A stretch of 64,000 nucleotides of DNA from assembly GCF_037392515.1 (NCBI RefSeq), contig NC_090287.1, forward strand, positions 9,221,501 through 9,285,500, given 5' to 3'. The stretch comes from Haliotis asinina. Taxonomy: Eukaryota; Mollusca; Gastropoda; Lepetellida; Haliotidae. The translations under genes and the position numbers were made by a program. This document shows positions 4,573-63,373 of the stretch, in pieces. The notes beneath the pieces were generated by a model that had not been told where the DNA came from, did no database searches, and saw nothing but the letters and a program-made list of their open reading frames with translations. The stretch's first letter is position 1, and each line of letters opens with the position of its first letter.

Positions 4573-4752
4573 ATTGTTTTCCCCTGGGTCGCGCTGTAGG
4601 TTAATACAGATACCAGTCTGAGGATACAAAATTCAGTAAAATACAGGCAAGATTCTCGGTTGCCCAATGATGATGTAGTTTAGATTCCCTTTGTTCACGC
4701 TGTAGGCAAATACGTCTGAAAATCCACATAGATTACCTAGTGCCCAATACAG

Positions 4753-6558
4753 ATGGCTGCCAATGAAAGGTTCTGGAAACAGCTGTGGTCTGTCCCCGGC
4801 GACTGTAACCTGGAGGCACCATGGGTCAGTGATTATGACCATGCAATGCATGAGAAATTGACCAGGTCGTTTGTCTGTTACATCTCACCAGATTGCCTGA
4901 AGACTTTTATAAAGAAGTCCAAATCTAATACAGCTCCAGGGCCTGATGGCATTCGAAACCAGTATTGGAAACTGTCTCCCTGTGTCCAAGCACCACTCCT
5001 TCACTGTTTCAATTCTCTTGTGGATACAGGTGATGTTCCTCCATGGTACTGCAAAGGTCGCACAATACTTCTCTCAAAAAAAGGAGACTTGACTGATCCC
5101 AAAAACTTCCGCCCTATCACATGTCTAAATACTCAATACAAATTATTCACAGGGTGTTTGACGAACCTCGTGTCATCATATTGCTCGTCCAATGAGATAA
5201 TTTACAGAGAGCAGAAGGGGCCGAGGAAGGGATGTTGGGGGTGCAAGGATCAACTTCTTGTACAGAAAATGATTTTGGAAGAGGCTAAAACGTATCATCG
5301 CAACCTCTCCATGTGCTGGATAGACTACAAAAAAGCATATGACTCTGTCCCTCACGAATGGATTCTGAAGTCTCTTCAGTGTATTGACCTCCCTGTGCGA
5401 CTACTTGATTTACTCAAGTCTTTAATGAGTTGCTGGTCGAGGAGAGGTGCAGACTTCAGAATCTATTCCAATCAGAAGGGGAATTGTCCAGGGGGACTCC
5501 TTTAGTCCTTTGCATTTTTGTCTGTCTCTAAATCCCTTGAGTTTTCTGCTCAATAGGGAGGAGGGGTACCATCCCGGGCCTCCTCAGCACAGATCCCCAA
5601 CGCCTCTTACTCATCTCCTCTACATGGATGACATCGAGCTCCTTGCCAAAGGAGAGACCAATTTGAAAGAACAGGTCCTCCTTGTCGAGTCCTCTAATGA
5701 TATTGGCATGACATTTGGACTCGACAAATGTAATACTCTTCATTTGAAACGTGGCAAGGTAACCAATAATGGTTCGGTCAGGTTACAAGCTGGAGGAGTT
5801 ATTGAGCATCTTGTGGAAGATCAGGCCTACACCCATCTTGGAATGCAAGTTCGAGACAAGCTCCAGAATGCCCAGATTCAAGATAAACTTCGGGCCGAGT
5901 ATAAATCTCGTTTAAAGAAAATCTGGAGCTCCCAGCTAAATGCTCGAAACAAGGTCAAAGCCACCAATACTTTTGCTGTGCCAGTCCTCTCCTATTCCTT
6001 TGGAGTAGTTGATTGGACAAAACAAGACATCCAGGGTCTTGACCGCCTGACCAGAAGGATCATGTCAGATAACAGAACACACCACCCTCGTTCCTCTCTT
6101 AATCGTTTATATATGCCTATCAATTCGGGAGGACGCGGTTTGATTAATGTGGAAGCTCTTCATGACAGAATTTTATTGTGTACTTTTGTACATATTTATT
6201 TGTCAGATGATCCTCTGGTGATGCACGTCAAGACTCACGATGAAAGCAAGGAATTCCACAGCTATTTTAAACGTGCCAAGGGTGTTGGACACAATTTGAA
6301 ATTTGAAGTTGATTTTGTTGATGGCGATGTACTGCTGGACGGTACAGTGATGAGAGCAAACCAGGTGAAGTCCTTCACCAAGTCTGCCCAGAGTCGGTCC
6401 TTTGTGGAGAAGCTGTCTGAGAAGCCACTGCACCGAGTGTACATGCAGTGTGTGGAACAGAACAGCAATCCAACCGACTCCTTTGCATGGATGAAGTCGG
6501 CTGGTCTCAAATGTGAAACAGAGGGCTTCCTTTTTGCTGCTCAAGACAGTCACTTCCC
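4753..6558 (+). pseudogene. LINE reverse transcriptase, frameshifted
   Basis: Non-LTR reverse transcriptase. Visible motifs in order: APGPDGIRNQYWK, KNFRPITCLN, the catalytic-Asp block DYKKAYDSVPHEW, then GIVQGDSFSPL and the active site LLYMDDIELLAK (5620-5660). The frame opens at 4753 and runs to a stop near 5505. The catalytic part continues in the next frame from about 5480; the switch falls in the run GGGG near 5476-5479, consistent with a 1-nt indel. A second switch occurs near 6556 (after AAQDSHFP), before the finger. The polymerase residues are all present, but no single frame encodes the enzyme, so it cannot be made as it stands. An assembly error at the G run is possible for the first break only. 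Confidence 0.85.
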
Positions 6559-7145
6559 ACTCGCAATCGCCAGAATGTTATTCTTAAAGAAAATATCAAT
6601 ATGAAATGTCGTCTTTGCAATGAATTCACAGAGACTGTCCAACACCTTGTCAGTGGATGCCCTTCCTTGGCACAAACAGCATATCTTAAAAGACATGATG
6701 GCATGTCTCGCTGCTTTTACTATCGTCTCCGCCATGCCTGTGGCTTTGACTCCGAGGTCCATCCATGGTATGACCCTGAACATGTCCAGGGTGTCCTGGA
6801 AAATGATAATTTCAGACTTCTCTGAAAACTAATGAAATTATTTATATCATTGAATTTTCTGTCCCTTTTGACAGCAATGTGATTGTCAAGATACAGAAAA
6901 ATCATGATAAATATGCGGATCTCGCCTTTGAAATGTCTCTCCTGTATCCCAAGTTCACTATCGTCAGGTTCCCCATTCTTCTCGGTGCCCTTGGTTTGGT
7001 ACCTCCTGGTCTCTTGGCGCAGATCAGGAGAGTGCCTGGGTTCTCCACCAGGAGCACAGCCCTTCTGACAATTTGGGTAATGCAGAAGGCTGCAGTGTTG
7101 GGGAGCCTCCATATTCTCCGAAAAGTTCTTGGTGGGTTCGACTAG
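6559..7145 (+). pseudogene. LINE CCHC finger and truncated restriction-like endonuclease
   Basis: In the frame of 6601-6825 the finger reads CRLCNEFTETVQHLVSGCP (C-x2-C-x7-H-x4-C), followed by YLKRHDGM and PWYDPEHVQGVLENDNFRLL, the usual lead-in to the R2-type endonuclease. The frame then stops at 6823-6825. The endonuclease resumes in another frame at about 6825 (IIEFSVPFDSN, then KYADLAFEMSLLYP, GALGLVPPGLL and QKAAVLGSLHILRKVLGGFD) and ends at 7145. The part between LL and IIEF, which in the family carries the conserved Arg-Pro-Asp catalytic motif, is absent; I infer an in-element deletion of roughly 30 codons. The element therefore lacks a working nuclease. Confidence 0.75.
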
Positions 7146-40053: not shown

Positions 40054-41179
40054 GCAAGCCTGTTTTTGTGTGGCGCCTACATATATATATTTCTCTGTAT
40101 ATTGCTTGTGTTATATATACAGGGGAAAAATTTACAGTAGACTACCTTTAAAACAAATACGCTTATAACGCACAAACTGATATAAAGCATGGTGGCAGTG
40201 TAACTACTGTGTCAGTCAGAATGTGTATAACGAACTACGGATATGAAAACTAGCGTTCCATTTGAGTTACTCTATTTTAAAGCTTATATTACTGACGGCG
40301 CTGCTACAAGCTACTGTAAATACTGAACAACAAATCTGTTCTGACTCTGTCTCTGACTCTGCATCCCACAAAAGGCACAAACCCATAATCGTGGGTTCAA
40401 ATGACGTTTCGAGGATTTTCAGCACCATACCTGTGTTCAAGGCTTTCAAATGCCATATGTCTCAGTTCTGCATGATTGCTAGCTTCCCTCCACCCACGCT
40501 CACCTGCCCCCCTACCTACTGGAATACCGTTCAAACCTAGCTATTCACTCACTCACTCACTCAGCGATACATGTCAGCAAATGACCCTCCGCGTTACAAG
40601 TCTGGTGATCCTCTTTCTGGGACTTGGTCTGCTTCTTACCGACTCGGATGCACGCTTCCTGAAGACTCAGGGCCGTGTTATGATTATATGACTCGCTTCT
40701 ACTTCGACAACAAGAAAGGTGTCTACAGGAGGTTCGGATATGGAGGTTGTCAAGGGAATTCCAACAACTTCAACATCCTGCATGAATACCAAGCTATATG
40801 TGGGGGTACGTATTACTACAGCCATTATACCCACTAACGTATTAGAACAGGGTTTTAAGAGACGACTTATTTTTAAGAGACCTTACGCTCGGCACATTGA
40901 ATACCCATGTAAAGCACGCTCTACCATCAATACCTCGAAAGCTGTGTGTCGAACACTTATATGCTGCGTAGGCACCAGGCACATTAAGGTATGAATTTCA
41001 TAATTACAGTATTTACACTACACAAATGAACCTTTCTTGAAGTGTCATGACACAGACTTTCAGGCCAATCATGTCCTGTTGGACGTCGGTGCTTGAACTT
41101 GAACATTATATTTTATGTGCAAGGTTACTAGTCGAATTCATCGAAGTCGAGTCAGAATTCATCTTGTTCAATCTCAAGG

Positions 41180-41730
41180 CCAATGGCTGCACGTGCAATA
41201 GGGAACGGCAGTCCGTCTCTCCTCGATACCATCAAAAGAAGGCTGTGTGCTGCTGGACAGTGGGACCTCGTCCGATCACGTGTCCTTTTCTCACAGATAG
41301 CCGCGGACAGGAATGTATTGCGTGGTTCATGCTCCAGGAATACTGCAAGTTGATGAAAGACGCAATCTACGACATGTCTTCGATGCCCATTGTCGTCTAT
41401 TATGACGAGTTATATCGCCAGGGGATTATCCAAGTACATGTAGTTGAAACCTTTGGTGTTGGCTTAGTGATGGTGTGGGGTTGCGTTTCCTGTAACACCG
41501 GTGATCAGCATTGTGCCACATTTTGATAACCATCCCTTTGCCAGTCGCTGGATACTCAACTGTATACCTCGCTGCTCTCGATCCGTCAATGCTCATTTGC
41601 AGAACAACGCAATCTAAAGAGTATCATTGCCACCAAGGCGCCCCATAAAATATCTGTGGGCATCTTCAACGCCACATCCGAGCTAGATATCCTGCTGTTC
41701 AGTATCTGCACAGATCGATGCAGGCATTTC
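41180..41730 (+). mobile_element. decayed Tc1/mariner transposase relic in intron 2 of gene A
   Basis: Short stretches resemble Tc1-type transposase in order but in different frames: TIKRRLCAAGQWDLVRSRVL, VVETFGVGLVMVWGCVS (the conserved VMVWG block) and a RPIKYLWAS block where the family has SPDLNPIEHLWD. The catalytic acidic residues are not preserved in one frame. Too decayed to define ends. Confidence 0.5.
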
Positions 41731-42169
41731 GTGATTAATCATCCCAGTCTAACTGCTGATATATTTCGTATTTCGAATGTCAGTAACGCAGTCAGATATT
41801 CTAGAATTATTATCCTCCCACACCGGCAGTTTAACTTTAACAAAGAGAATAACCAGTCTCGATCATTCAGTGAAATCATTACTACAATTACAAAGATAGT
41901 GGCAGTAGGTATGGCATGAAACTTGGAGCATAGTAAGGAAATACTCCATTCATATTTACTGGTTTTTCACCTAAGTCGTTTCTCGTATATATGACGAGCA
42001 TTGAAAGTGTGAAAGGCACGGTGGGACATAGAAAGAAGCAACGGCACCCGTGCATTTGTAGTGTAATGCCATATCACTATTAATCTTAGATAAGCGCGAC
42101 AATGATTGAGGAAGAATCAATTATCAGTTAATCTACGGGAGACTTTTTGAGCGGAAAAAGGGTATGTAG

Positions 42170-42392
42170 TTTTACGTCGAACTTAACTCTGTTTTTCAAC
42201 TCTACACTGAACGGAACTCTATTTTTCAACTCTACACTGAACGAAACTCTATTTTTCAAATCTACACTGAACGAAACTCTATTTTTCAAATCTACACTGA
42301 GCTGAACTCTATGTTTCAACTCTACACTGAACGGAACTCTATTTTTTTAACTCTACACTGAACGGAACTCTATTTTTCAACTCTACACTGCA
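42170..42392. repeat. 30-bp tandem repeat, ~7-8 copies, in intron 2 of gene A
   Basis: Units of GAACTCTATTTTTCAACTCT plus ACACTGAACG with few changes. Confidence 0.92.
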
Positions 42393-42732
42393 GTGAACTC
42401 AGGCCGCAGACAGCGGCGGCATATGAGGTCAGATACACCGGCATGTGAGGTCATATATGTGTTACAATTAAATATATCCGTATGGTTACGTAGAATGTAT
42501 GTGTAGTTGGGTATTGTGTATATATTGATGAATAAATAATGCATGATATATATATAACGCATATCGTCAAGATCAAGCAAATCTTAATATTTAGGCATGG
42601 GCGTGTGCTGTGGTAATTTGATGTTTTTTTTATTTACATTAGCGGATCATAGAATTCTGTTTAATCTTTTTGTTTGAAATTTAGCGATATGTTGTATCGG
42701 GTGTATAGTAATATTCTGTTAATGTCCTCCAG

Positions 42733-42932
42733 GTGTTGACCAATGCAAACAACGTCCAGATCCAGGACATTGCTTTGCCAGCATCCTACGTTTCTTCTAT
42801 GACCAGTTCAGAGGAACATGCAGACCATTTATCTATGGAGGATGTGGAGGCAACTACAATAACTTCCTCACTAAACAACAGTGTCAGTTCCAGTGCAACT
42901 GCTTACCGCTCATTCCCAACAGTCTGGGTTAG
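42733..42932 (+). CDS. Kunitz gene A exon encoding domain 2
   Basis: Acceptor TTAATGTCCTCCAG at 42732, phase 1, stop TAG at 42930-42932. The frame used here differs from the longest open frame at this locus. It encodes a complete Kunitz domain with all six cysteines: QCKQRPDPGHC, Phe at P1 (CFASIL), FFYD, GTCRPFIYGGC, GNYNNF, QQCQFQC, then a short tail NCLPLIPNSLG with one extra Cys. A P1 Phe suggests a chymotrypsin-like target by family rule. AATAAA lies at 42995-43000. The exon belongs to gene A because it is on the same strand, has a matching phase-1 boundary, and the next Kunitz promoter is downstream. Confidence 0.85.
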
Positions 42933-42994
42933 GTGGGAAGCCAATGCATTGTGGTCAAAAAGAAGGCGTTTTATTTCACTGAACAATCTGCAGG

Positions 42995-43000
42995 AATAAA
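42995..43000 (+). terminator. polyadenylation signal of Kunitz gene A
   Basis: AATAAA, 62 nt after the stop codon. Confidence 0.7.
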
Positions 43001-43319
43001 TGTTCTGTGGAACTTTAACGTTTGTTATATAAAATCAGGCATAACTTGCGGCTCTTATGTTTAATTAGCTGACCTCATACGAATCGAGGGATGATTTCAA
43101 CTTTTCACTTTCGAAAGGAATGAGTTTGGATAGAAACCACATTCAATTATTGTATTTTCACAAGTAGCAGTTTGTTGGGGAGAAAATGAACGTGGACATT
43201 TGACGTTTTCAGACATGTAGGCTGACAGGAAAAGCATCATAATATTGGAAGGTTCGTAACTGGGACAATCGTATCCCAGGAATCCAAGGGTATTAACAAG
43301 TAACTGGTAAACTGGTATC

Positions 43320-44380
43320 CAAAAGAAACGCCACCAAATATTTTTTCTGGTCTAAAACAAAACGTACGCAAAATATGGTAACATTACGTGTTTTATTGTA
43401 AGAAGCAGTCATTCAGCATTTTAAAAGACTGAGTATTTAATGGATAACAAAAAGAAAAACGATGCAGCTTGTGATCTAATATCACATGAATGACACTGGT
43501 GCAATATTCAGTATTCGATAACCAGTGCAGAATCGAATAGGAGCTTTTACAAATTTCTGGGCAGCACATATTGTTCAATACCGGATGTGGCCACCCCTAT
43601 CAGTGATGCAGACCCTAACACGACGTCGAACAGAGTAGGTAAGTCTTTCTGCTTCTTGATTAGGGATACGACACCATTCCTTTTGCAGGGAGCTGCCAAA
43701 ACGTTTCTTTGGCTCATTTTGACGTTTCCGAATATGACGTCCCAGCTGATGCTCAATTTGGGGACAGATCTTGAAGAGTTTGAACTTGTGTTCGTCAATA
43801 ACTTTCACTCTTCGCCAGTTTCGCTGCTGCCAGTGTCGCAAAGTCCTGGTTCATTTCGATCTGGCACGTCATGCCCTTGAAAGGTTGATTGGCACGGAGA
43901 CCTCAATTCCTCAGTTGAAACAGCCGTATATACCCGTCCTCTTTTTGGGTAGTGACCTTCAGTATACCTCTCTTTTGGCCTGTCTGCAGTACTGCCAGTC
44001 TGACATAGACAGTGGATTTGCAGCATCCCATGGTCGTAGCCACATGCTCTTGTGTCTGTTCCATCTGTAACATAGCGGTTGCTCTATCCCTCTACTCTGG
44101 TGTTAAACGAGGCATGTTCCAGGTTGTCAATCGATTAAAATGATGTGAGAGAATATACCTGGTTAGTTTTTATACCCTAATTTGGTACGGTACCTTTGTG
44201 CACAGTTTCTGCTTTATTCTTAAAAATTCGGACTTTTTCACAAAATACAAAATGCAAGTGCAAGTGTTCTCTGGGAATAGATGTGTTGTGTTCGAGAGAT
44301 GTGTTTTTCGCTATTTTCAAATAGACTGACAATTATTTTGACAATTTACAGTCGTTTTTATTTTGGTGGCGTTCCGTATG
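43320..44380 (-). mobile_element. defective Tc1/mariner-like transposon with terminal inverted repeats
   Basis: Inverted ends: AAACGCCACCAAAT near 43326 and ATTTTGGTGGCGTT near 44359. Minus-strand start ATG at 44115 (MPRLTPE...) opens a helix-turn-helix DNA-binding region (HVATTMGCCKSTV), then frames shift. The C-terminal end survives at 43760-43575 (LQKEWCRIPNQE, then SVRRRVRVCITDRGGHIRY), a typical Tc1-family C-terminus. The element is ~1.06 kb and most of the catalytic core is missing, so this is an internally deleted, frameshifted copy. Confidence 0.8.
43575..44115 (-). pseudogene. Tc1-like transposase remnant
   Basis: N-terminal helix-turn-helix and C-terminal tail are recognisable, but several stops and frame changes separate them and the DDE core is deleted. 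Not expected to be active. Confidence 0.75.
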
Positions 44381-44764
44381 ACCCCTAGTTCATATTCGGA
44401 CATTGTTGCTCACCACCATTATGTAAACTGACCATTCTACAAATCGTGTCGACCGCCTCCGCTGTTTACTCTGATGTCGTGCATCATCGACAACGTTAAA
44501 CCAACAGACCTGCTGGTTGCAACCTTACCGGTGATCGGTATTGGGAGATGATACAAGGTCTCCCTGCGATGTGCCCGCATCGAGTATCCATGCTGAAATT
44601 CAACACGAAGAAAACGAATTTCTTCCTCTGGTCAAAAGATGTGAGTTGCTAGGAGAATAAACGGTGCGCCCCTGGCTCGAGGTGTATCTGAAGCGGACAT
44701 AAAATGTTTACCTTGAAAGAAATGTCTATTGTTAAGATCTGTGTGTGTCTGTCTTGTTCAAATT

Positions 44765-44951
44765 CGCGGTGGTCCGTAAACAATCGAGTCTGGACCAGTG
44801 ATCACAAGCACGATTATCGATCTGTTCAAATGGGATACAACAGCACGTGTCGACCAAGTTAGTGAGTTTGATCACTCGATCCCGTTAGTCGCTTCATACG
44901 ACAAGTATGGGTAGCTGAAGATCATTTCTAACCCGGATCTTCACGGGTTAG
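44765..44951 (-). mobile_element. SINE family B, partial copy
   Basis: GTAAACAATCGAGTCTGGAC, GTGTCGACCAAGTTAGTGAG, GATCCCGTTAGTCGCTTCAT and GATCTTCACGGGTT in order. Confidence 0.85.
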
Positions 44952-45029
44952 GAAATAAAAAGAGGTACGTACGTTGTCTCCTGTGAGTTGGAGATAATAC
45001 TTCTTTGTGAAAGGGAATATCGTGAACAA

Positions 45030-45135
45030 AGCCGATCTCAGTGATTGTCATTATTGCTTCAAATAAAATCGATCTCAGTGTCTGTCATTGATATTTGAAA
45101 CAAAGGCGATCTAAGTGAATGTCAATATTTAAATG
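45030..45135. repeat. ~41-bp imperfect tandem repeat, three copies
   Basis: Three copies of (C)GATCTCAGTG.(T/A)TGTCAT followed by an AT-rich segment. Confidence 0.6.
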
Positions 45136-45699
45136 CAGCCTGCCGGCCAAATCACGGTCGTTCACTTCACTTACACAAATAAAATCCTTAAATTAGAAAC
45201 CCATTACTTGTTCTTCACCACAATCTCTCCATGTGGACGGACATCTTTAAGATTTACAGTTGTGGGATAACCGTTCTCTTGTTATGAAGTTCTCTCCATC
45301 CTTGTTTTCTTTAAGTTGCAGTTCAAATAGACTACCAATAGATATATGCACTTAAGGAGCTATTTGACATTCACTTTGAGGACGGATTCCAGTGCATTAG
45401 TTTGTGACATGTGGGTAAGAAGGAGCCAAACCAAGTAGATCTCGCCAGGTATTTTACCTGAAGCTTCAGATAGATAGATCATGTAATGTAAGTCAATAAT
45501 GATCCAAGTCCTTTCTCACAAGCAATATATACAAAAGAAGCCCGTGAAAGCATCCGATTAGTTTGAATCATGTAAACAGATGAATACTGACAAATTACGC
45601 TTCGCAAGCCTGAGTGATCAGTTGATGACGTCAACTTTCAAACAGTCAGTCTTCCCTTTATGTCAATCTACGACAGCTTGGCTGATGCATGCCGTTGTA

Positions 45700-45812
45700 G
45701 CTCAGTAGTGCTGACGTTGATGCCTTTCATTGGATCATCTGGTCCAGACTAGATTACTAGTATTTACAGACCTTCGTCCCTGGTAGGAATATTGCTGAGT
45801 GCGGTGTTCAAC
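45700..45812 (+). mobile_element. SINE family B, 3' part
   Basis: CATCTGGTCCAGACTAGATT, then AGGAATATTGCTGAGTGCGG. Confidence 0.75.
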
Positions 45813-45819
45813 AAGGAAC

Positions 45820-47240
45820 AAATTCTACAAAGATATTAAAAGCATCAAACGACTCTCTTGTTCTAAAGCTTTTCGTTCAGCGTTGTCTGAGAGTAGTTAT
45901 TGAAGGAATGCTCGTGTTAGTAGGAATGGAGATGTGACAGGAGATTTAATATCACGAAAATGATTATATTTCTAGATTTCATTTTCGATGTATTATAGGA
46001 ACTGATATATTATTATCCTAATTTCTAAAACAAATTTGTCGCTTCTAGCATAAGCCGTGGCTTTACTAAGTGTCTAAGGGTGACTTCATGTTGAAGACTC
46101 AGATCATATCAGATGTATGGAATTCAAAAATAGTTTCAACCATTCAGCGTCATTCTTCAGTGTTATAGTTTAATTGTGTCAGATCAAATGCATTTGTATA
46201 TGTAGAGCCAGGAAAGCAATACCAAAGGCGAGTCTGTCCAGCTACTGATCATTGAAACTGTTTTCGCAATCGCCTAGTGCCGTCCTTTTTTTAATTATCA
46301 TTTGTGTAATTTCAATCCTTTTTGCCTTTGTCAAGTGAAAATTGTTTCAACGTATTACCAGACTGGTAACGCTTCTTACTGACATATCCTGATGATAATA
46401 AATAACAACATCTGTCACAATCGTGTCTGCCTTAACCGTCAAGCCTTTCTAATGAACCTGGGTACATCCTAGACTTTATGCTTGCTTTCTCAGCAGCACT
46501 GAAATGTATCTTCACCGGCGATATTGTCAACGCATGGTATGTGTTCGACGTGGAAATAAATAAGACGAATAATGCGTTGACAAAGACGAAGGATAGATTG
46601 AGTTCAAAAGATTTGTTGACTATATATACATTGCATGATAAACAGCATGCTAGTGCTGCTCGCCGTCGTCCCTGCGCAGACAGTCAGAATACCAGTCTGC
46701 ATGACAATACAGATGTGAGCATGTATACAGGTTTTGACAACAATGGACAGGCAAAGACTCAACAATGACAGACAGAGACACAATAGCACATGACGCAGTT
46801 GATGTGACGGCAGACCCTGCCGAGGGGGATGATTAATTAGTGAAAGTGGCTGACAAGAAAATGTACACTGCAGTATTGATGAGGATTACGTATGCAGATT
46901 AACGTCATGGAAATGATTACAATTAAATCTCACGTGGCTTGGGTGGATGTTTTGTGGTTTTTTTTAGTTTTTTAGAAATACTTGAAGGAAGACTGTTCTG
47001 AATTTGACGTTTTGACAATAACACCGACCCCAAGTTAAGGAACACCCAATTTGAGTAGGGACGGGGAGCAAAGGGTTTAGTCTACACAAAAAGCTGATAG
47101 AGAACATCTGATTGTGGTGTAATAAATAGTGATTCTGGTGACAGGTGATTCCGTCACGGTCTCCTCCTGTCCCATCCATCATCAACTGAAAAGAGAGTAG
47201 ACGTTAAGTGGGGACACGGTGTTCAATCACAATCTTCTAC
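45820..47240. other. intergenic stretch between Kunitz genes A and B
   Basis: No Kunitz exon or other domain seen in any frame. The 96-codon frame at 46478-46768 is unrecognised. Confidence 0.4.
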
Positions 47241-47244
47241 GTCA

Positions 47245-47254
47245 ATCAATCATG
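47245..47254 (+). promoter_or_regulatory. upstream promoter motif of Kunitz gene B
   Basis: ATCAATCATG, 31 bp before TATA (47276), the same sequence and offset as in gene A. Confidence 0.5.
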
Positions 47255-47275
47255 TTATGTCCCATCAAGGTCGAC

Positions 47276-47329
47276 TATATATACTCTCTTCATAAAGGAC
47301 AGTTTCAAAAGAGACCTGAGAAAAAATCA
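47276..47329 (+). promoter_or_regulatory. TATA box and non-coding first exon of Kunitz gene B
   Basis: TATATATAC at 47276. Donor ATCA|GTAAGTTGG begins at 47330, 54 nt later. The expected start is near 47306, giving a ~24-nt 5' untranslated exon. Intron 1 (47330-47659) ends at TCTCTCCACAG. Confidence 0.7.
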
Positions 47330-47663
47330 GTAAGTTGGTGTTTGCTCTTGATACTTGTGAATTGTAAAAATCATTATTTCCGTTTATAAGAAGTAATTGT
47401 TACGGTCAGTGCATAATCTCACTTCGAAACATGAACTCTTTCACAACCTTTAATCATTAAACTCAACGCCTGGTACAAATTAACAAATAAGCATTGAACA
47501 GTCAATTCCATCATCACGATAAATGATGATGTTTAATTACAAAATATCCTTAACCTTTGGTGACCGCAAGGCAAAGTTAATACTTTCGTATTATATACTC
47601 AATTATGATATGTATAAGATATGAATGTATATAATATATATATATCTGTCTCTCCACAGCGAG

Positions 47664-47907
47664 ATGTCTCTCCACGGTGCAACTCTGATTGCTGTCCTAG
47701 CTGGGCTTGTTCTTCTCACCTCAGCCCAGTACCACATTAACCCCTACCGGTGCCAGCTTCCTAAGGCCACAGGTCATTGTTTAGGATCGATTCCGCGGTA
47801 CTACTTTAACTACCGACTTGGTATATGCGAGAAGTTCATCTACGGAGGCTGTGCCGGAAACTCGAACAACTTCCACACTTTGAATGAATGCCGCGCCGTC
47901 TGTGGAG
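47664..47907 (+). CDS. Kunitz gene B exon: signal peptide and domain 1
   Basis: Signal core LIAVLAGLVLLTSA, linker QYHINPYR, then a standard domain: CQLPKATGHC, Leu at P1 (CLGSIP), RYYFNYRLGIC, EKFIYGGC, AGNSNNFHTLNEC, RAVC. All six cysteines are at canonical spacing. P1 Leu is compatible with elastase- or chymotrypsin-like targets by family rule. Confidence 0.93.
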
Positions 47908-49124
47908 GTACGTGATGATGCAGTAAATGACTGTCCTTATGGATCATGTCATGGAGTGTAGGAAAATATCTATTTGTGCTTGTTTCGTTATGAATCGTGC
48001 CATGCAGTGTAGGAAGATATTCACACTGTCAAATCCGTATGTGGGAATACATACCTGGGATTTTGTCTTCAGAGTCTCTTCACATGCACAGGACAGTTCT
48101 ACTCAAAAATTAAAATCCACTTTTCTTGTTTTTATATAAGTCGGTATCTCCTGTCTGTTGATTATTTTGAAGACTTGTCTGCATGTGTGAGGTATCAGGC
48201 AACAAATGGTGAGTGAGTGAGTGAGTGAGTGAGTTTAGTTTTACGTCGCACTTAGCAATATTCCAGCTATATGGCGACGGTCTGTAAATAATCGAGTCTG
48301 AACCAGACAATCCAGTGATCAACAACATGAGCATCGATCTGCGCAATTGGGAACCGATGACATGTGTCAACCAAGTCAGCTAGTCTGACCACCCGATCCC
48401 GTTAGTCGCCTCTTACGACAAGCATAGTCACCTTTTATGGCAAGCATGGGTTGCTGAAGGCCTATTCTACCCCGGGGCCTTCACGGGTCTCAGGCAACAA
48501 ATAATGCCTTTTGTGAGTGGCTATACCGCTCCGGCACGCCATGGTTACTATGCCTGTAACGATGCATCCAACTATCGATGAATTGTAAATGATGAGTCTC
48601 CGATAGCAATTAATCGAAGAAACGAAAATCTATCGATGATTCGACTGCCTGCGTGATAATCGATAGTTTCGTAACTGACTGTAATTTAATTAAATCTGTC
48701 TTTGATTTACTTTTGTTATTTGGGTGCAGTTTATGTTTTATCTGTTTACTTGATCTGGGTTACAAATATTCCTGTCAGTTATTAAGAGAGACGGAAACTA
48801 TTTCATGCACCGAACCCGGCATATTGTGTCACCAGCGAACGTCTCCATCTCACAACCACCTTTCCATCACCAGTGTCACATCTCACATACTATTTGTAAT
48901 TTTATTTTATCTTTGCAGTTCCGAGATGATTAATTATAATATATCTTATTTCAGGAGAAGACCTTTGTTTGCAACCTGTTCTTCAAGGTGTTGGCCGGGG
49001 ATACTACCCTCGGTACTTCTATGACTATTATTCTGGCACCTGCCGAAGATTTGTGTACTCAGGGAGAGGGGGCAACTGCAACAACTTCCACACTCTTCAG
49101 GACTGTCAGTTCCAGTGCTGTTAA
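47664..49124 (+). CDS. Kunitz gene B: secreted protein with two Kunitz domains (137 aa)
   Basis: Coding exons are 47664-47907 and 48955-49124, joined by a phase-1 intron (TGTGGAG|GTACGT ... TTATTTCAG). The ATG at 47664 is chosen over an in-frame one at 47625 because an acceptor (CTCTCCACAG) lies between them and because the signal peptide (residues 1-21, ending LLTSA) starts there. Domain 1 follows directly in the same exon, unlike C and D. The mature protein should be secreted, ~116 aa. Kunitz domains bind serine proteases through the residue after Cys14, or act as channel blockers or matrix proteins; which applies here is unknown. Domain 2 is atypical (see its exon). Same-strand neighbours are A upstream and C downstream. 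Confidence 0.92.
48208..48489 (-). mobile_element. SINE family B, full-length copy in gene B intron 2
   Basis: 282 bp, GTGAGTGAG... to CCTTCACGGGTC, with a perfect 13-bp target duplication TCAGGCAACAAAT at 48195-48207 and 48490-48502. Among the best-preserved copies in the window, so a recent insertion. Confidence 0.94.
48955..49124 (+). CDS. Kunitz gene B exon: domain 2 lacking the Cys14-Cys38 pair
   Basis: Reads EDLCLQPVLQGVGRGYYPRY, then FYDYYSGTC, RRFVYSGRGGNC, NNFHTLQDC, QFQCC and stop. By BPTI numbering Cys5, 30, 51 and 55 are kept, Cys14 is Gly and Cys38 is Arg, so both partners of one disulfide are gone. Two extra cysteines appear at positions 42 and 56. The fold signature (YFYD, F33, Y35, NNF, C51-x3-C55) is retained. 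Loss of exactly this pair is known in conkunitzin-S1 of cone snails. Confidence 0.9.
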
Positions 49125-51901: not shown

Positions 51902-51941
51902 TGTGTGTGCGTGTGCGTGTGCGTGTGCGTGTGCGTGTGAT
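51902..51941. repeat. (GTGTGC)n microsatellite
   Basis: Six-base repeat in intron 1 of gene C; the equivalent in gene D (60834-60899) is longer. Confidence 0.95.
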
Positions 51942-53249: not shown

Positions 53250-53322
53250 ATGGCGTTGTCCTTCTGCCAGCTGGGTTTGGTGTTGGTATTCTTTGGTCTG
53301 ACCTCAGCCAAATATCATGATG
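53250..53322 (+). CDS. Kunitz gene C exon: signal peptide
   Basis: 24 codons plus one base, ATG GCG TTG ... AAA TAT CAT GAT G|GTAAGTAC. Nearly identical to the gene D exon at 61374; the differences fall in the hydrophobic core (VLVFF against LLLFV). Confidence 0.93.
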
Positions 53323-56300
53323 GTAAGTACGCCTTTGTAAAGTTCACTTAGCTAGTGAAAACAGCTGAGCCAATATACTACTTCCTGACCCGTGAACTCA
53401 ATAACTGACAATAGTTTAAAAATGGAGGACGCTGTTGTTTGACAAATTCAAAAAAGTGAAAGTGGAAAAAGTGAAACAAAAGTTGGTCAAGAGAAGTATT
53501 ACATTGATGTCTGTTTGTAAACCTTAACTGTCAAAGACGATGACGATCACAAAACAGTACTTAAAAAAGTTATCACGTCAAATAAAGGGCTAAAGTAGAT
53601 GTGCCACACATCTGGAATTCATGACGATCCAGGTCAAAATTGGTCTTCAGTAACCATTGCTTGTCGTAACGATATCGGGTGGTCTGACTAAGCTGACACG
53701 TGTCATCGGATCCCAGTAAGTAATAATTTTATTCATGTACATGTCACTATACAGTTACAGAGCATGATAACGACAGGAGCGTAAATGTGTAAGTAGTGTT
53801 CCTGTTGTGACTCAGTCTAAGTAAACTTAGTCTCAGTATTATTCGTTACACTCCAGGCCTATATTGAGTCTAACAAACCCCAGTAGGAGGTAGGCAAAAC
53901 TGTAGCGCAAATCGGGATGCGCAGCATAGAGAAAATGACAAGTCTTCGTTTTAGCGAGTTGAGCGAGCAAAAGTTGGCTCCCTCGTTTTCGGATCGAAAA
54001 ATATTTTTCATGTAAAAGATATCGCCACCATCAAAGGTACACTCAAATTTCCTCACTTAGTTGTGTTCTCAGATTTTCAGTGTTTAATAATTACTCACAT
54101 GAAATAAGTTTTGTTCAACATTTTAAGTGTCACTCGTTGTATTCAGATCGTTCTTTCAAATATATATATATCAGTGTCGAGCGCCTATGGCACAGTTTGG
54201 GTTCAAAATTTCTTTTTGCACGATCAGTGGTAATGGGATGGTTCGTTTCTATTGAATTCAACAACTAGACTCCACGTTCAGATGTTGACAGTTACTAGGG
54301 TCACAAATCGATTGCCTATATTCATGTGTATCATATGATGAACAGTTTACTTCCATTTTCATCTGTTTGTATCGGTGCGTCAGGATACGCACATCGCAGA
54401 TACGCACACCGCAAGCACGTGCGTATTTATTACGTGCTTACGTGTGCAAGCATAATTATTTGATATCAATTAACAAACACGCTTACAACATAACCTGGAT
54501 CTGGTAGATATTTGTTTATTTTTGTTCAATGATTTACCTGTCCCTGTCTATAGGTACAACTTGATTAGTGTTTCATCACTGCTTGAACTTCATATTATAC
54601 AAGCCCGTCGCCATATAGCTGGAATATTGCTGAGCGCGACGTAAAACTACATCTCTCACTCATTCATATTATACTCGTGATTTCAGTGTGCCAGCTGCCC
54701 AAAGACTCTGGACCATGTTATGGTTATTTCCCACAGTACTACTTCAACAGTAGGACCTGTCTCTGTGAGAAGTTCGTGTACGGAGGGTGTCAGGGGAATG
54801 CCAACAATTTCGACACTCTGGAGGACTGCAGGCGTAGATGTGGAGGTAGAGTAATGTGTAGTGATACGACACTGTGGAGGACTGCAGGCGTAGATGTGGA
54901 GGTAGAGTAATGTGTAGTGATACGACACTGTGAAGGACTGCAGGCGTAGATGTGGAGGTAGAGTAATGTGTAGTGATACGACACTGTGGAGGACTGCAGG
55001 CGTAGATGTGGAGGTAGAGTAATGTGTAGTGATACGACACTGTGGAGGACTGCAGGCGTAGATGTGGAGGTAGAGTAATGTGTAGTGATACGACACTGTG
55101 GAGGACTGCAGGCGTAGATGTGGAGGTAGAGTAATGTGTAGTGATACGACACTGTGGAGGACTGCAGGCGTAGATGTGGAGGTAGAGTAATGTGTAGTGA
55201 TACGACACTGTGGAGGACTGCAGGCGTAGATGTGGAGGTAGAGTAATGTGTAGTGATACGACACTGTGGAGGACTGCAGGCGTAGATGTGGAGGTAGAGT
55301 AATGTGTAGTGATACGACACTGTGGAGGACTGCAGGCGTAGATGTGGAGGTAGAGTAATGTGTAGTGATACGACACTGTGGAGGACTGCAGGCGTAGATG
55401 TGGAGGTAGAGTAATGTGTAGTGATACGACACTGTGGAGGACTGCAGGCGTAGATGTGGAGGTAGAGTAATGTGTAGTGATACGACACTGTGGAGGACTG
55501 CAGGCGTAGATGTGGAGGTAGAGTAATGTGTAGTGATACGACACTGTGGAGGACTGCAGGCGTAGATGTGGAGGTAGAGTAATGTGTAGTGATACGACAC
55601 TGTGGAGGACTGCAGGCGTAGATGTGGAGGTAGAGTAATGTGTAGTGATACGACACTGTGGAGGACTGCAGGCGTAGATGTGGAGGTAGAGTAATGTGTA
55701 GTGATACGACACTGTGGAGGACTGCAGGCGTAGATGTGGAGGTAGAGTAATGTGTAGTGATACGACACTGTGGAGGACTGCAGGCGTAGATGTGGAGGTA
55801 GAGTAATGTGTAGTGATACGACACTGTGGAGGACTGCAGGCGTAGATGTGGAGGTAGAGTAATGTGTAGTGATACGACACTGTGGAGGACTGCAGGCGTA
55901 GATGTGGAGGTAGAGTAATGTGTAGTGATACGACACTGTGGAGGACTGCAGGCGTAGATGTGGAGGTAGAGTAATGTGTAGTGATACGACACTGTGGAGG
56001 ACTGCAGGCGTAGATGTGGAGGTAGAGTAATGTGTAGTGATACGACACTGTGGAGGACTGCAGGCGTAGATGTGGAGGTAGAGTAATGTGTAGTGATACG
56101 ACACTGTGGAGGACTGCAGGCGTAGATGTGGAGGTAGAGTAATGTGTAGTGATACGACACTGTGGAGGACTGCAGGCGTAGATGTGGAGGTAGAGTAATG
56201 TGTAGTGATACGACACTGTGGAGGACTGCAGGCGTAGATGTGGAGGTAGAGTAATGTGTAGTGATACGACACTGTGGAGGACTGCAGGCGTAGATGTGGA

Positions 56301-59110
56301 GGTAGAGTAATGTGTAGTGATACGACACTCTGGAGGACTGCAGGCGTAGATGTGGAGGTAGAGTAATGTGTAGTGATACGACACTGTGGAGGACTGCAGG
56401 CGTAGATGTGGAGGTAGAGTAATGTGTAGTGATACGACACTGTGGAGGACTGCAGGCGTAGATGTGGAGGTAGAGTAATGTGTAGTGATACGACACTGTG
56501 GAGGACTGCAGGCGTAGATGTGGAGGTAGAGTAATGTGTAGTGATACGACACTGTGGAGGACTGCAGGCGTAGATGTGGAGGTAGAGTAATGTGTAGTGA
56601 TACGACACATTGTATTGTGTGAAATAGGTTGAGGTTGCTACTTACATATATCAATTGGGTGACCACATCATAAAAGCGTTCTATCGTCACGCCGAAATCC
56701 CGGGTTGGATTCCCCCATGTTTAGCCTGTATCAGGTGCCTCGTGTACATATTCCTGGAATACAGTGTACTCTGTATAATTCCGTCTCTTTCTATCTCGGA
56801 TTTCTCTGAAAATCGGTCTGAGATTACGGTCCCGAATTCAATACTACATATTATCATAAAATCATCTCTCTATAATCCGGACTTTCTCTATGTCGGATCT
56901 CGGACAGAAGTCTCGGCCCGACAGACTAACTTACTTTTTTGAGTGGCATTTTAGAAGTTGAGGTGTACAAATAGGACAAATTGTTATGGATAACAGACTA
57001 ACTTACTATGAAAACAAACCCTATAATCCCAACTGAGTACCATAGACAGCCAGTCGGACAATTAACGGTTAACTCGGCCCGACAGACTAACTTACTTTGA
57101 AAACAAACACTATAATCCCGACTGAGTAGCGGTACATAGCGGCACTTATTTTGATTATTGGCAACTCACATTAACCTCGGTTATTACTGAGATAACACTG
57201 TTAACTCAGTGTCACTCTCGACACCTGTTAAAAGACTTCAAGCGCCTGACATGAACATTACATGCTAAAATGGCGGACCGACCAATAAAACGTCGTCGAT
57301 TTGAGCTGCCGCTTGGCACAAAGATAAAGTTGATCGAAGATTCCGAAACTCTTCCCGAACCCCTTCAGAAAGACTTAAGCACACTCACTCAGTCAGTATA
57401 TTAAAAACGGCAAATAGTATTTTAAAAGCATGTTCGTTATGACGGACATTTTTAATACTTCAACATGTTATTGTATTACGTAACAGCAGATGACCCGTGG
57501 AGGTCCGGGGTAGAATAGGCCTTCAGCAACCCATACTTGCCATAACAGGCGACTATGCTTGTCGAGTGGTCAGGTTCGCTGACTTGGTTGACAGATGTCA
57601 TCGGTTCCCATTTGCGCAGATCGATGCTTATGCTGTTGATCACTGGATTGTCTGGTCCAGACTCCATTATTTACAGACCACCGCTATATAGCTTGACTAT
57701 TGCTGAGTGCGGCGTAAAACTAAACTCACTAAAACACTGTAACAGCAGATGAAATTTATTTTTCCAGAAAAGATAACTCTATTCATGCTGGATACATACA
57801 CATCTCCCTTTATTATTTAGGTGTAATGAGAATGATAAGATTCATTAGTATCTTTTATTTTAGGATAACCGAAAGAACATTAAACCATGAAAATAGAAAA
57901 ATGGTGTAATATATCAATGATTCAAATGATTATGATATTTACAGATTCTGAAAAATATATGCAATTTAAGACAACTTACACGTGTTACGGTTAAGAATTT
58001 ACCGTGACAAAAGACGTAAGAAATCCCCTTGTGAACCAGCAAAACAGAACAAAGACAAGTCATAAACGTTCACATTATGTATTATTATGCAACGAGAGCA
58101 AGGTATACAAAGTCACAAGTCAGTTCCACAATACTGATTTCTAGTCCAATTCAAGAGAGACAAAATCTAAGTCAATGGGACACAAGATATAATATAGCAA
58201 ACTCACTAAAGTCTCAGTACGAGAGATAATCACTATGGAGAATGTAAACACAGCGATCGATCTGACAGCAGATAATGTAGATTCAAGCGGATTTTGATGA
58301 TCAAGCGTTGCAGTGATGTATCTTCCAGTTAATATGAATGAGTGTCATTTTCAACACGGCAACCAGCCTTTCTATATATTTACTCAGTCATTTCCCGAAA
58401 GTTCGGGCACATAAGGCAATCGTCAACGCTGTAAAATGCCCTCGAATAAGTCTCCCGAAAGTAAACACATAGAAAACTAGGAGCAGATAAATTCCGGAAA
58501 ACCAGAATTCTAAAAGTGTTGACCATCTATTAAAACGAAATGTGACCCATTATATTAAATATTCAAGTCACTAAACATTGTGACCCAATGATAATTGTTA
58601 CTGAATTAATAACAAAATATACAGAAAATACACATTCGTAACACACGTTCCGTCTTTGTTACCCTGAACATCTCTTCATTATATTAAATCTAATGGTTTA
58701 CAGTGTATTAATCTATACATAGTATTCTCTCTTTAGATGTACGACATAACAATGGCACATTATCATTATTTATAATGTATGTTTCTCTGCCGCTTTCTTG
58801 TCTTTTATGTAACAGTTGCATTTGCGTGTGTGCATGTGTGGTTGTAGTCATAGCGTTGGTGGTGGTATTAATCTTTGTAAGTTTTCAACAGATCTAATGC
58901 GTGTTTCTCTCCACTTTGTGTCCAGGCGGTGACCTCTGCACTCTCCCCAGAGATCCTGGTCCTTGTGACGACGATATCCCCAGATGGTGGTACAACAAAC
59001 GCACAAACAGATGTCAGAGATTCAGCTATGGGGGCTGTGAAGGGAACGCCAACAACTTTAAAACGCTGTACGAATGTCGTTTCCAGTGTCGAAGAGGATG
59101 GACATATTAA
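53250..59110 (+). CDS. Kunitz gene C: secreted protein with two Kunitz domains (138 aa)
   Basis: Coding exons 53250-53322, 54687-54845 and 58926-59110, all joined in phase 1 with GT-AG introns; total 417 nt. The first coding exon follows the acceptor GTCTGTTTAG (53235). Signal peptide [20 protein letters not shown], linker KYHDG, domain 1, domain 2, short tail RRGWTY. Predicted extracellular. Domain 1 has Tyr and domain 2 Asp at the P1 position. The intron after domain 1 (4.08 kb) holds a 32-copy minisatellite that starts inside the exon, a pogo-like relic and SINEs; the same intron in paralogue D is 634 bp. Skipping the first donor of that intron yields a one-domain protein ending [20 protein letters not shown] plus E. 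Regulation is likely through the TATA promoter at 51715. Confidence 0.93.
53622..53718 (+). mobile_element. SINE family B fragment in gene C intron
   Basis: TTGGTCTTCAGTAACCATTG, CTTGTCGTAACGATATCGGG, GCTGACACGTGTCATCGGAT. Confidence 0.75.
54601..54662 (+). mobile_element. 62-bp 5'-truncated SINE next to the domain 1 splice acceptor of gene C
   Basis: Contains only the 3' end of family B (CGCCATATAGCTGGAATATT, GCTGAGCGCGACGTAAAACT, ending CTCTCACTCA). Perfect 12-bp target duplication TTCATATTATAC at 54589-54600 and 54663-54674. Gene D lacks the insertion at the matching place. Only 12 nt (TCGTGATTTCAG) separate the duplication from exon 2, so the branch-point zone is now SINE-derived. Confidence 0.92.
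54687..54845 (+). CDS. Kunitz gene C exon: domain 1
   Basis: [11 protein letters not shown], Tyr at P1 (CYGYFPQ), [36 protein letters not shown]. All six canonical cysteines are present plus an extra Cys at position 28 (RTCLCEKF). The exon ends TGT GGA G|GTAGAG; its last 35 nt and the donor are the founder of the minisatellite. Confidence 0.94.
54811..56608. repeat. 56-bp minisatellite, exactly 32 units, carrying a Kunitz exon end and splice donor
   Basis: The unit starts CGACACTGTGGAGGACTGCA, then GGCGTAGATGTGGAG|GTAGAG and TAATGTGTAGTGATA. Boundaries give (56603-54811)/56 = 32.0 with no indel; only a few substitutions are visible (54932 G to A; CTC for CTG at the first unit and near 56330). 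The first unit is coding exon sequence; the others are intronic. All three minus-strand frames stay open for >600 codons because the unit has no antisense stop; that is not a gene. Confidence 0.97.
56650..56760 (+). mobile_element. SINE family A fragment after the minisatellite
   Basis: AAAGCGTTCTATCGTCACGC, CCCGGGTTGGATTCCCCCAT, then ATTCCTGGAATA. Confidence 0.6.
56762..57404 (+). mobile_element. pogo/Tigger-like DNA transposon, 5' end only
   Basis: Begins TA|CAGTGTACTCTGTATAATTC, followed by CTATCTCGGATTTCTCTGAA and CTCTATAATCCGGACTTTCT, the type of terminal sequence I associate with pogo/Tigger elements (TA target). An ~90-bp internal direct repeat (CGGCCCGACAGACTAACTTA at 56913 and 57076) follows. 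The ORF at 57270 starts the transposase. The rest of the element is missing; a SINE lies 90 bp further on. Confidence 0.55.
57270..57404 (+). pseudogene. CENP-B/Tigger-type helix-turn-helix N-terminus, truncated
   Basis: A 44-codon frame: [36 protein letters not shown]. The basic start followed by a K-x-K-LIEDSE helix resembles the first DNA-binding helix of CENP-B/Tigger transposases. It stops before the recognition helix, so it is a remnant. Confidence 0.5.
57494..57738 (+). mobile_element. SINE family B copy with target-site duplication, gene C intron
   Basis: Starts CCCGTGGAGGTCCGGGGTAG, ends GGCGTAAAACTAAACTCACT plus AAAACACT. Perfect 14-bp duplication GTAACAGCAGATGA at 57480-57493 and 57739-57752. 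Confidence 0.93.
57755..58925. other. intronic stretch of gene C before the domain 2 exon
   Basis: AT-rich, no element recognised; ends in the acceptor TTTGTGTCCAG. Confidence 0.5.
58926..59110 (+). CDS. Kunitz gene C exon: domain 2 with acidic reactive site
   Basis: [14 protein letters not shown], then [47 protein letters not shown], stop 59108-59110. Six canonical cysteines. P1 to P3' is Asp-Asp-Asp-Ile, an unusual acidic loop that does not fit trypsin- or chymotrypsin-like inhibition. AATAAA at 59183. Confidence 0.93.
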
Positions 59111-60833: not shown

Positions 60834-60903
60834 TGTGTGTGCGTGTGCGTGTGCGTGTGCGTGTGCGTGTGCGTGTGCGTGTGCTTGTACGTGTGCGTGT
60901 GAT
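60834..60903. repeat. (GTGTGC)n microsatellite
   Basis: About 11 units, in gene D intron 1; the gene C counterpart is shorter. Confidence 0.95.
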
Positions 60904-61373: not shown

Positions 61374-61446
61374 ATGGCGTTGTCCTTCTGCCAGCTGGGT
61401 TTGTTGTTGTTATTCGTCGGTCTGACCTCAGCCAAATATCATGATG
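61374..61446 (+). CDS. Kunitz gene D exon: signal peptide
   Basis: Acceptor GTCTGTTTAG ends at 61359; 14-nt leader ATCACGACTGAATT, ATG at 61374, donor GATG|GTAAGTAC at 61447. Confidence 0.93.
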
Positions 61447-63373
61447 GTAAGTACAAGTACACCTTTCACAGTTAACCATCCATTCATGCATATATTTATT
61501 TAGCGCCTGTAATCCTCATAGGTACTTTGTATATTCCCTTGATCACTGGATGTATATCTCAACGGCACATGGTATTTTCAACCTCCCCTCCCTGGGGATC
61601 ATACAACTCGTTCAGCCATGTTGACTCGCCATGTTATTGTGGCTTTCCCACATAGTCACAATACTTTGTCCAAGTTTACTGTATGTTGCTGTACCCGCAT
61701 TTAGGTGTTTGCATGTTTTCATGTGGCGCAATGTGGTGTCTAACCAAACGCTTCTATTAAGTGTTTACAGGGTTGTGTTACTGTACACTAGGGGTTGTGA
61801 CAACACTGAGATAGTCAGCACACAAAGTTGACTCCAAGGTGTTAACACCCGGTCACAGGTGGGCTCGATCACGGCACCTTAAGCTTCCTGGGTCACTAGC
61901 CTAGCGTCTTAGACAACTCGCAAACCACGCATCTGTGAGGCCTTTGAACATATACTGAAGACAGCTGAACCAGTACCCTCCTTCCTGACCCATGAGCTCA
62001 ATGCAGGGCAATAGGTCAAAAAGGGTGTCGATATTACTTGACTAATTCAAAAGGAGAAAGAAACAAATCTTAGCCAAGAGAAGTCATGCTTTAATGTCTT
62101 TTTGCAAATTCCGGTAAACGAAAAAAAACCCAATCAATTAGAATCCCTAAACGTACACAATAGATATGTAACAGTCTAGTTACTATCACAGCAGCTAAAT
62201 GGTAAAGTAGATGTGTCACTCAGCTGGAAGCAGTGTAGATCTGGGTTAGAAGTGGCCATTAGCAACCAATGCTATTCGCAAAATGTGAGTAACGGGATCG
62301 GGTTTCTTTAGAAATGATTTACCCTCCGTCTATAATTACATGTTGATTAGTGTTTCATGCACTGCTGGAACTTAATATACACACTTTGATTTCAGTGTGC
62401 CAGCTGCCCAGAGACCCTGGCCCATGCAGAGCGTACATCCCACTGTACTACTTCAACAGTAGGACCTGTCTCTGTGAGAAGTTCGTGTACGGAGGGTGTC
62501 AGGGGAATGCCAATAGATTCGACACTGTGGAGGACTGCAGGCGTAGATGTGGAGGTAGAGTAATGTGTAGTGATACGACACTGTGGAGGACTGCAGGCGT
62601 AGATGTGGAGGTAGAGTAATGTGTAGTGATAATACGTCGATTCCTTACGTGGTATTCCTGGATGTGTGTGTGTGTGCGTGCGTGTGTGTGTGCGTGTGTG
62701 TGCTTTTGTGCTTGCGCCTGTGTGCGTGCGTGTGTGTGTGTGTGCAGGGGGGGTGGAGGGGTGTTGGGTTAGTTCGATATATTGAATCTTCACATAGGAA
62801 CGACGTGTTGGGTCACGTGTCCCCGCCTTGATATTCCTGGATGTGTGCGTGTGTGCGTTAGTGCGTGCTTGTATCGAAACGTTGGGTTAGTTGGATGGTG
62901 GCGGTCGTCGTCGTCATGGTGGTAGTGAGGTTGTTGATGCTGTTGATGTTGTTCGTGGTGGTGTTAATCTTGGCATGGGGCCGCGGGGTACCCTGGTGGT
63001 TAAAGCGTTGGATCGTCACACCGAAGACCCGGGTTCGAATCCTCACATGGGTGCAATATGTGAGGCCCATTTCTGTTCCCCACTCTGATGTTGCTGTGAC
63101 ATTGCTAAAAGCGGCGTAAAACTAACTCAGCAATCATGGTAGTTCTTCAAAGGGTTTAATACAACATGTTTCTCCCTTTCATGTCCAGGCGGAGACCTCT
63201 GCAGTCTCCCCAGAGATTCGGGTCCTTGTGAGGCCGCTATACCCAGATGGTGGTACAACAAACGCACAAACAGATGTCAGAGATTCACCTATGGAGGCTG
63301 TGAAGGGAACGCCAACAACTTTAAAACATTGGACGAGTGTCGTTTCCAGTGTCGGAGAAGATCGACATATTAA
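61374..63373 (+). CDS. Kunitz gene D: secreted protein with two Kunitz domains (138 aa)
   Basis: Coding exons 61374-61446, 62396-62554 and 63189-63373, phase-1 joins, 417 nt, the same structure and length as gene C about 8 kb upstream. Signal peptide [20 protein letters not shown], linker KYHDG, domain 1 (P1 Arg), domain 2 (P1 Glu), tail RRRSTY. Predicted extracellular. Arg at P1 makes domain 1 the best candidate for a trypsin-like inhibitor in the cluster. Introns are compact (949 and 634 bp). A tRNA-type SINE sits in the last intron, ending about 60 bp before the acceptor. Duplicated flanks on both sides show C and D arose by a segmental duplication. Confidence 0.94.
61450..62390. other. 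intron of gene D between signal and domain 1 exons
   Basis: No element recognised; lacks the truncated SINE found in gene C. Confidence 0.5.
62396..62554 (+). CDS. Kunitz gene D exon: domain 1, trypsin-type P1 Arg
   Basis: [54 protein letters not shown]. Six canonical cysteines plus extra Cys28. From the FNSRT block to GNAN the DNA is identical to gene C, while P1, P1' and P3' all differ. Confidence 0.94.
62521..62630. repeat. two-unit version of the 56-bp repeat in gene D
   Basis: The exon end and donor unit starting at 62519 are repeated once more from 62575, then diverge at GATAATACGTCG. Same unit as the 32-copy array of gene C. Confidence 0.95.
62662..62746. repeat. (GT/GCGT)n microsatellite
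   Basis: TG-rich simple repeat followed by a G run, intron of gene D. Confidence 0.92.
62982..63130 (+). mobile_element. SINE family A copy in the last intron of gene D
   Basis: tRNA-like head GGTGGTTAAAGCGTTGGATC with B box GGGTTCGAATCC, then ACATGGGTGCAATATGTGAG and tail GCTAAAAGCGGCGTAAAACT plus AACTCA. Absent from the same intron of gene C. Confidence 0.9.
63189..63373 (+). CDS. Kunitz gene D exon: domain 2 with acidic reactive site
   Basis: [61 protein letters not shown], stop 63371-63373. Six canonical cysteines, Glu at P1. Acceptor TTTCATGTCCAG ends at 63188. Confidence 0.94.

Follow-up and report, generated by a model that had tools for sequence, protein, structure and literature searches.

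What happens when one intron offers the splicing machinery the same donor many times over? Intron 2 of gene C, a Kunitz gene in the 64-kb window analysed here (the whole stretch of DNA, 64,000 nucleotides), carries 32 identical donor cores, and a two-donor sister gene lies 7.7 kb off for comparison, which makes the locus a natural experiment in splice-site choice. The gene C array could reveal whether, among many equal donors, the first one is preferred, and, if it is neutral, provides a clean case for judging the amount of repeated splice signal that a gene tolerates. The account that we favour, and hold to be probable, is that of a recently homogenised, probably neutral minisatellite which is removed by splicing from donor 1.

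The host gene and its array

Spliced across three coding exons (Table 1), gene C encodes a predicted product of 138 aa with two PF00014 stretches (E 5.9e-40), as expected of a two-domain protein of the Kunitz/BPTI family. The nearest named proteins are those of Haliotis rubra, 91% identical along 84% of the query, and H. rufescens, 79% identical along 98% of it, and among the matches listed both have their two domains joined as donor 1 would join them. These joins give weak support to the use of donor 1, since the entries look like predictions and that of H. rufescens is named 'isoform X2'.

Table 1. Positions in the window of the features of genes C and D and of the array.
Feature	Position	Strand	Remarks
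Gene C exon 1	53250-53322	+	signal peptide by look; 138-aa two-domain Kunitz protein in the spliced reading
Gene C exon 2	54687-54845	+	Kunitz domain 1; last 35 nt belong to array unit 1
Gene C exon 3	58926-59110	+	Kunitz domain 2, last coding exon
Minisatellite array, 32 full 56-bp units	54811-56602	+	head-to-tail; 31 spare donors in gene C intron 2
Donor 1, GGAG/GTAGAG	54846-54851	+	best U1 pairing bulges one nucleotide at +3 or +4
TAA stop	54908-54910	+	terminates any reading running past donor 2; 98-aa product
Unit 28	56323-56378	+	C at position 8, as in unit 1
CGACAC	56603-56608	+	first six bases of a would-be 33rd unit; likely the seeding microhomology
Gene D exon 1	61374-61446	+	paralog of gene C
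Gene D exon 2	62396-62554	+	paralog of gene C
Two 56-bp array units in gene D	62520-62631	+	same place relative to the gene as in gene C
Gene D exon 3	63189-63373	+	paralog of gene C

Gene C belongs to a cluster of four Kunitz genes, in which gene A (at about 40.5-42.9 kb) and gene B (47664-49124) lie upstream of it in the same orientation (40541-49124). Kunitz domains normally have six cysteines; domain 1 of genes C and D (54687-54845 and 62396-62554) carries a seventh (TCLCEKF) besides these, and domain 1 of gene A, set against the usual cysteine pattern, has Tyr at two of the positions. Among the proteins reported from the shell matrix of H. asinina is one that carries two Kunitz domains in succession (PMC2989941). 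Elsewhere in the window, a repeat about 270 bp long is dispersed over both strands, at 2245-2521, 48212-48489, 57484-57738 and other places, the three named copies being 82-93% identical and one of them lying within gene C intron 2. Two overlapping open frames at 4741-6604, which we take to be of the LINE-type reverse transcriptase kind, have as their neighbour an array at 3561-4571 with 42.6 copies of a 24-bp unit.

Tandem Repeats analysis by TRF placed the array of gene C at 54811-56608 with period 56, 32.1 copies, 99% match and 0% indel. When the units were compared one by one, 29 of the 32 proved identical and the remainder differed by three substitutions (G8C in units 1 and 28, G11A in unit 3) with no indel, giving a mean pairwise difference of 0.33% per site. 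The sequence-only reading had taken unit 1 for the real exon end, followed without indel by 31 near-identical exon-end/donor pairs, and this is borne out, with exon 2 ending at 54845. Its division of the unit into about 35 nt of exon, the donor and about 15 nt of intron was likewise correct and can be made exact: 35 nt are the end of exon 2 and 21 nt the start of the intron, with the donor GGAG/GTAGAG (the slash marks the border), so that the 5' splice site native to exon 2 forms part of the unit. This decamer is intact in all 32 units, of which unit 1 spans the exon 2 border. The motif CGACAC also opens each unit on the exon side and stands as a six-base direct repeat on either flank of the array. 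A search for a 39-base core with at most three mismatches gave 34 matches in the window, 32 in the array and two at 62527-62621, and none in 100 shuffles. Among the 12 array rows (period at least 15, copies at least 5, some rows overlapping each other) within 164 kb around the locus, the gene C array is the most homogeneous and the top-scoring one.

An array of 1.8 kb with 99% homogeneity is hard for short or noisy reads, and the true alleles might have fewer or more units than 32. We consider such an assembly artefact quite improbable, as the assembly is of long range (159 contigs make up its 1.143 Gb, and the array lies on one of 66.9 Mb), the 164 kb examined contain 0 N and the variant units 1, 3 and 28 form landmarks inside the array. 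Furthermore, gene D in this assembly has the unit twice over, away from the long array, which supports at least a two-copy state.

Several further candidates for the nature of the array were rejected. An array of RNA hairpins was dismissed for unit 2 and for units 2-3, the stretches that were folded, since neither folds better than its shuffles (z +0.95 and +0.85). The minus strand holds three overlapping open frames of 615, 652 and 658 aa at 54683-56720, which between them use all three frames and each cross the array from end to end, since the unit read on that strand is free of stop codons in every frame; the same is true of 14% of its single-base shuffles, and we take the frames to be due to chance and not to an antisense gene. 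Recursive splicing or micro-exons are unlikely: GGAG/GT and CTGCAG/GCG occur in every unit with 7-8 pyrimidines in the preceding 20 bases, where the five acceptors inferred for genes B, C and D have 12-16. A mobile or phage link was set aside too, as a 36-base core had no exact match in IMG/VR and an 81-base piece of the array, compared with its own genome, matched in two places only, the arrays of genes C and D (at least 33 matches).

Donor choice in gene C

The unit length is not a multiple of three, and use of the second donor consequently shifts the frame. Donor 1 leads to the predicted product of 138 aa, donor 2 to a frame-shifted one of 180 aa, and donors 3-32 each to the same 98 aa, all of them running into the TAA listed in Table 1; the earlier argument that only the first donor gives the two-domain protein thus holds. 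Against the consensus, the array donor agrees at 5 of 9 positions without a bulge and at 8 of 9 with one base bulged, and the energy of its U1 duplex comes to -8.6 kcal/mol for a bulge at +3, to -8.5 for one at +4 and to -6.6 without any bulge. For comparison, the values are -10.5 for the exon-1 donor of gene C and -7.3 for the donor of gene B, and only 0.96% of 8,436 GT sites (a set that excludes the plus-strand GTs of the array but keeps 137 minus-strand ones) are at least as stable with U1.

The sequence-only reading had named competing donors and U1 binding sites as possibilities next to neutrality. With 32 intact donors and fairly good U1 pairing, a role in splicing is possible. The spare donors might act as a rheostat, competing with donor 1 so that the copy number sets the ratio of two-domain to one-domain inhibitor; any RNA spliced from donors 3-32 would then either encode the common 98-aa product, a single Kunitz domain followed by a tail of 20 residues, or be destroyed. 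The intactness of 32 of 32 donors and the single reading that donors 3-32 share agree with this, as does the donor being of the bulged-register type (8/9 against 5/9 of the consensus; -8.6 or -8.5 against -6.6 kcal/mol), since bulge registers are reported alongside more alternative donor choice (PMC9311317). Retention of one unit does occur in a comparable array of human ABCA7, but it is described as rare, in 2 +/- 1% of transcripts, and as independent of array length (PMC5954066). Moreover, the read-through tail had only a single chance match of four residues (E 6.3) among 127 listed homologs, a comparison of listed matches that left 36 of the 156 matches of one search outside. Donors 4-32 should also trigger decay if nonsense-mediated decay in molluscs works like that of vertebrates. 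Finally, the probability that three random substitutions all avoid the 10-nt donor core is 0.55, so that 32 intact donors are expected from recent copying and selection is not needed. We therefore regard the rheostat as unlikely.

Another possible role is that the array binds many U1 particles and either guards the long intron against premature polyadenylation, as in the telescripting model, or titrates U1 locally; surplus U1 was reportedly the subject of a study by Hodson in 2012. Every unit offers a site with a U1 duplex energy of -8.6 kcal/mol, and intron 2 of gene C contains one AATAAA (57284) and five ATTAAA, all 3' of the array, with none in intron 2 of gene D. However, such hexamers, given here as raw counts without a chance expectation, are also found where there is no array, in intron 1 of gene C (one AATAAA) and in the intron of gene B (two ATTAAA), and we consider this role highly improbable.

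Whether an array at such a place is unusual was viewed against the other Kunitz loci. A genome search for the Kunitz domain scored at least 61 matches, and 30 loci were examined, each with about 1.5 kb on either side. An array with a period of at least 15 overlaps the matched exon in two of the 30, namely genes C and D, and five of the 28 others (L024, L030, L031, L032 and L044) have a minisatellite of at least 10 copies, again with a period of at least 15, no further than 1.5 kb from the exon. Long minisatellites near the exon but not touching it were seen at L030 2072-3135, L031 2486-3153, L032 2508-3156 and L044 18-1255. Genes A and B have a donor, GTACGT, at the same place as gene C and no duplication there; the intron is thus ancestral.

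In the favoured account, donor 1 would be the one most likely used by the spliceosome, because the exon is then 159 nt long and a two-domain inhibitor results from no other donor; the other 31 donors would leave with the 4,080-nt intron, and leakage to donor 2 would, judging from the ABCA7 precedent, amount to a few per cent at most. That donor 1 is used in gene C is what we infer from these considerations. As to whether the array is neutral or functional, the indirect evidence leans to neutral: minisatellites occur near 5 of 28 other Kunitz loci, the intactness of the donors needs no selection, and the tail is without a match beyond the chance one in 127 homologs.

Exchange between genes C and D

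The second, two-copy array in the paralog gene D had been overlooked by the sequence-only reading. Gene D is the closest paralog of gene C (85% identity in domain 1, followed by gene B with 64%), and its protein also has two PF00014 stretches (E 1.4e-42). Its units begin 7.7 kb downstream of the gene C array and equal the first two units of gene C in 111 of 112 bases. Outside the unit, exon, UTR and promoter blocks of the two genes are 76% to 94.5% identical and the compared intron stretches 38-64%, intron 2 just past the array being hardly alignable (38% identity over 215 columns); the divergence amounts to a dS of 0.18 for the whole CDS and 0.26 for exon 3, and the 3'UTR is 76% identical. 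Despite this, the 77 unit sites that follow donor 1 are without a single difference, the chance of which is about 1.5e-6 at a neutral 0.16 per site, about 1e-9 at the 3'UTR rate and about 1.6e-4 at a low 0.107. The longest identical run covers 104 of 935 compared sites and was equalled in none of 20,000 runs in which the difference positions were permuted, a test that ignores uneven constraint; 77 of the 104 run sites are intronic in both genes. The absence of differences and the long identical run in genes with a dS of 0.18 strongly support that sequence passed between genes C and D after their split. The recent expansion or active homogenisation proposed earlier is thereby supported and extended to array exchange with a neighbouring paralog, and the C/D array would present a minisatellite that moves coding sequence between genes.

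The direction of this traffic is indicated by unit position 8. Unit 1 of gene C has C there, coding for Leu69, and the coding exon of gene D carries the G of the array (Val). The G is probably derived, since the Leu-coding C agrees with H. rubra, H. rufescens and gene B, all of which likewise have Leu.

The array may have started as a tandem duplication across the exon-intron border that included the donor: as CGACAC stands in the exon and recurs in the intron at a distance of 56 bp, slippage or unequal exchange between the two could double the segment. Unequal exchange would then have let the gene C array grow to 32 copies and kept the copies alike, and exchange between the genes would have left two array-type units in gene D, one of them inside its coding exon. 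CGACAC was not found after the last unit of gene D, whereas in gene C it both opens the unit and follows the final copy, so that the indication for the seeding step comes solely from gene C. The simplest story is accordingly one of seeding in gene C, expansion, and passage of two units into gene D with change of a coding residue, as we infer it; passage in the reverse direction, from D to C, is also possible. A bolder reading would see a self-copying donor array that spreads between paralogs, rewrites a residue of gene D (Leu69 to Val) and by its copy number tunes two-domain against one-domain inhibitor; we give it a low probability.

Other parts of the two genes also differ unevenly. In the matching stretches 54719-54802 and 62428-62511, genes C and D differ at five of the six codons 36-41 of the Kunitz reactive loop, with four amino-acid changes, and their codons 42-63 are identical, a pattern that suggests patchwork conversion together with fast change of the inhibitory loop. 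Codon 36, presumably the reactive-site residue by its position in BPTI, encodes Tyr in gene C and Arg in gene D, and this difference suggests different protease targets. Upstream of the genes, homologous blocks have a (GTGTGC)n microsatellite in common, with 5.8 copies in C (51905-51939) and 10.8 in D (60837-60901).

Comparison with known systems

In the listed titles and abstract openings on minisatellites and splicing, no abalone array is described, and the matches listed for Haliotis, Kunitz, tandem and intron concern other subjects. The closest precedent, and the same kind of object as far as its published description goes, is the intron-18 VNTR of human ABCA7, in which the first two bases of a 25-bp unit are the exon-18 donor and about 12-427 units are reported (PMC5954066). 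As in gene C, the unit holds the native donor of the preceding exon and every unit is a potential spare donor, the unit length is not a multiple of three so that the second donor shifts the frame, and the copies run to tens. The ABCA7 unit starts at the GT and varies slightly, whereas the 56-bp unit of gene C includes 35 nt of coding exon and is near-identical throughout, and the gene C array, unlike that of ABCA7, is also present in an adjacent paralog. Longer ABCA7 alleles are reported to strongly raise skipping of exon 19 (PMC5954066), and a donor-bearing array thus need not be silent; in-frame skipping of this type is without an equivalent in gene C, where the next exon is the last coding one.

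Variable internal tandem repeats at exon-intron boundaries were described by De Grassi and Ciccarelli in 2009 for human segmentally duplicated genes, in a set that includes 27 intron modifications, recent expansions and up to 39 copies of one type of repeat in morpheus exon 8 (PMC2812944). Genes C and D resemble these in having a minisatellite at an exon-intron border with a copy-number difference between paralogs (32 in C, two in D). The repeats of that set average 30 bp and four copies, whereas here the unit is of 56 bp, in 32 against two copies, with a full donor in each; furthermore, their hosts are segmental duplications with at least 90% identity over 1 kb, a level that genes C and D do not reach (76% to 94.5%; introns 38-64%). 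Tandem duplication of a segment bearing AG/GT is also the basis of the Rogers model of intron gain (PMC4974935), but no intron was gained in gene C, as the donor of genes A and B at the same position indicates that the intron predates the duplication. Intronic minisatellites tied to splicing are further known in TERT, where VNTR6-1 is proposed to work via G-quadruplexes at a distance of about 3.5 kb from the exon concerned (PMC11830802), and in C. elegans, where CeRep25B is associated with alternatively spliced regions (PMC4039745); a native donor in the unit, as in gene C, is not part of what is described for either. The array of gene C thus adds a case to the donor-containing VNTRs described so far, distinguished by its 35 nt of coding exon, its near-identical copies and the traffic between paralogs.
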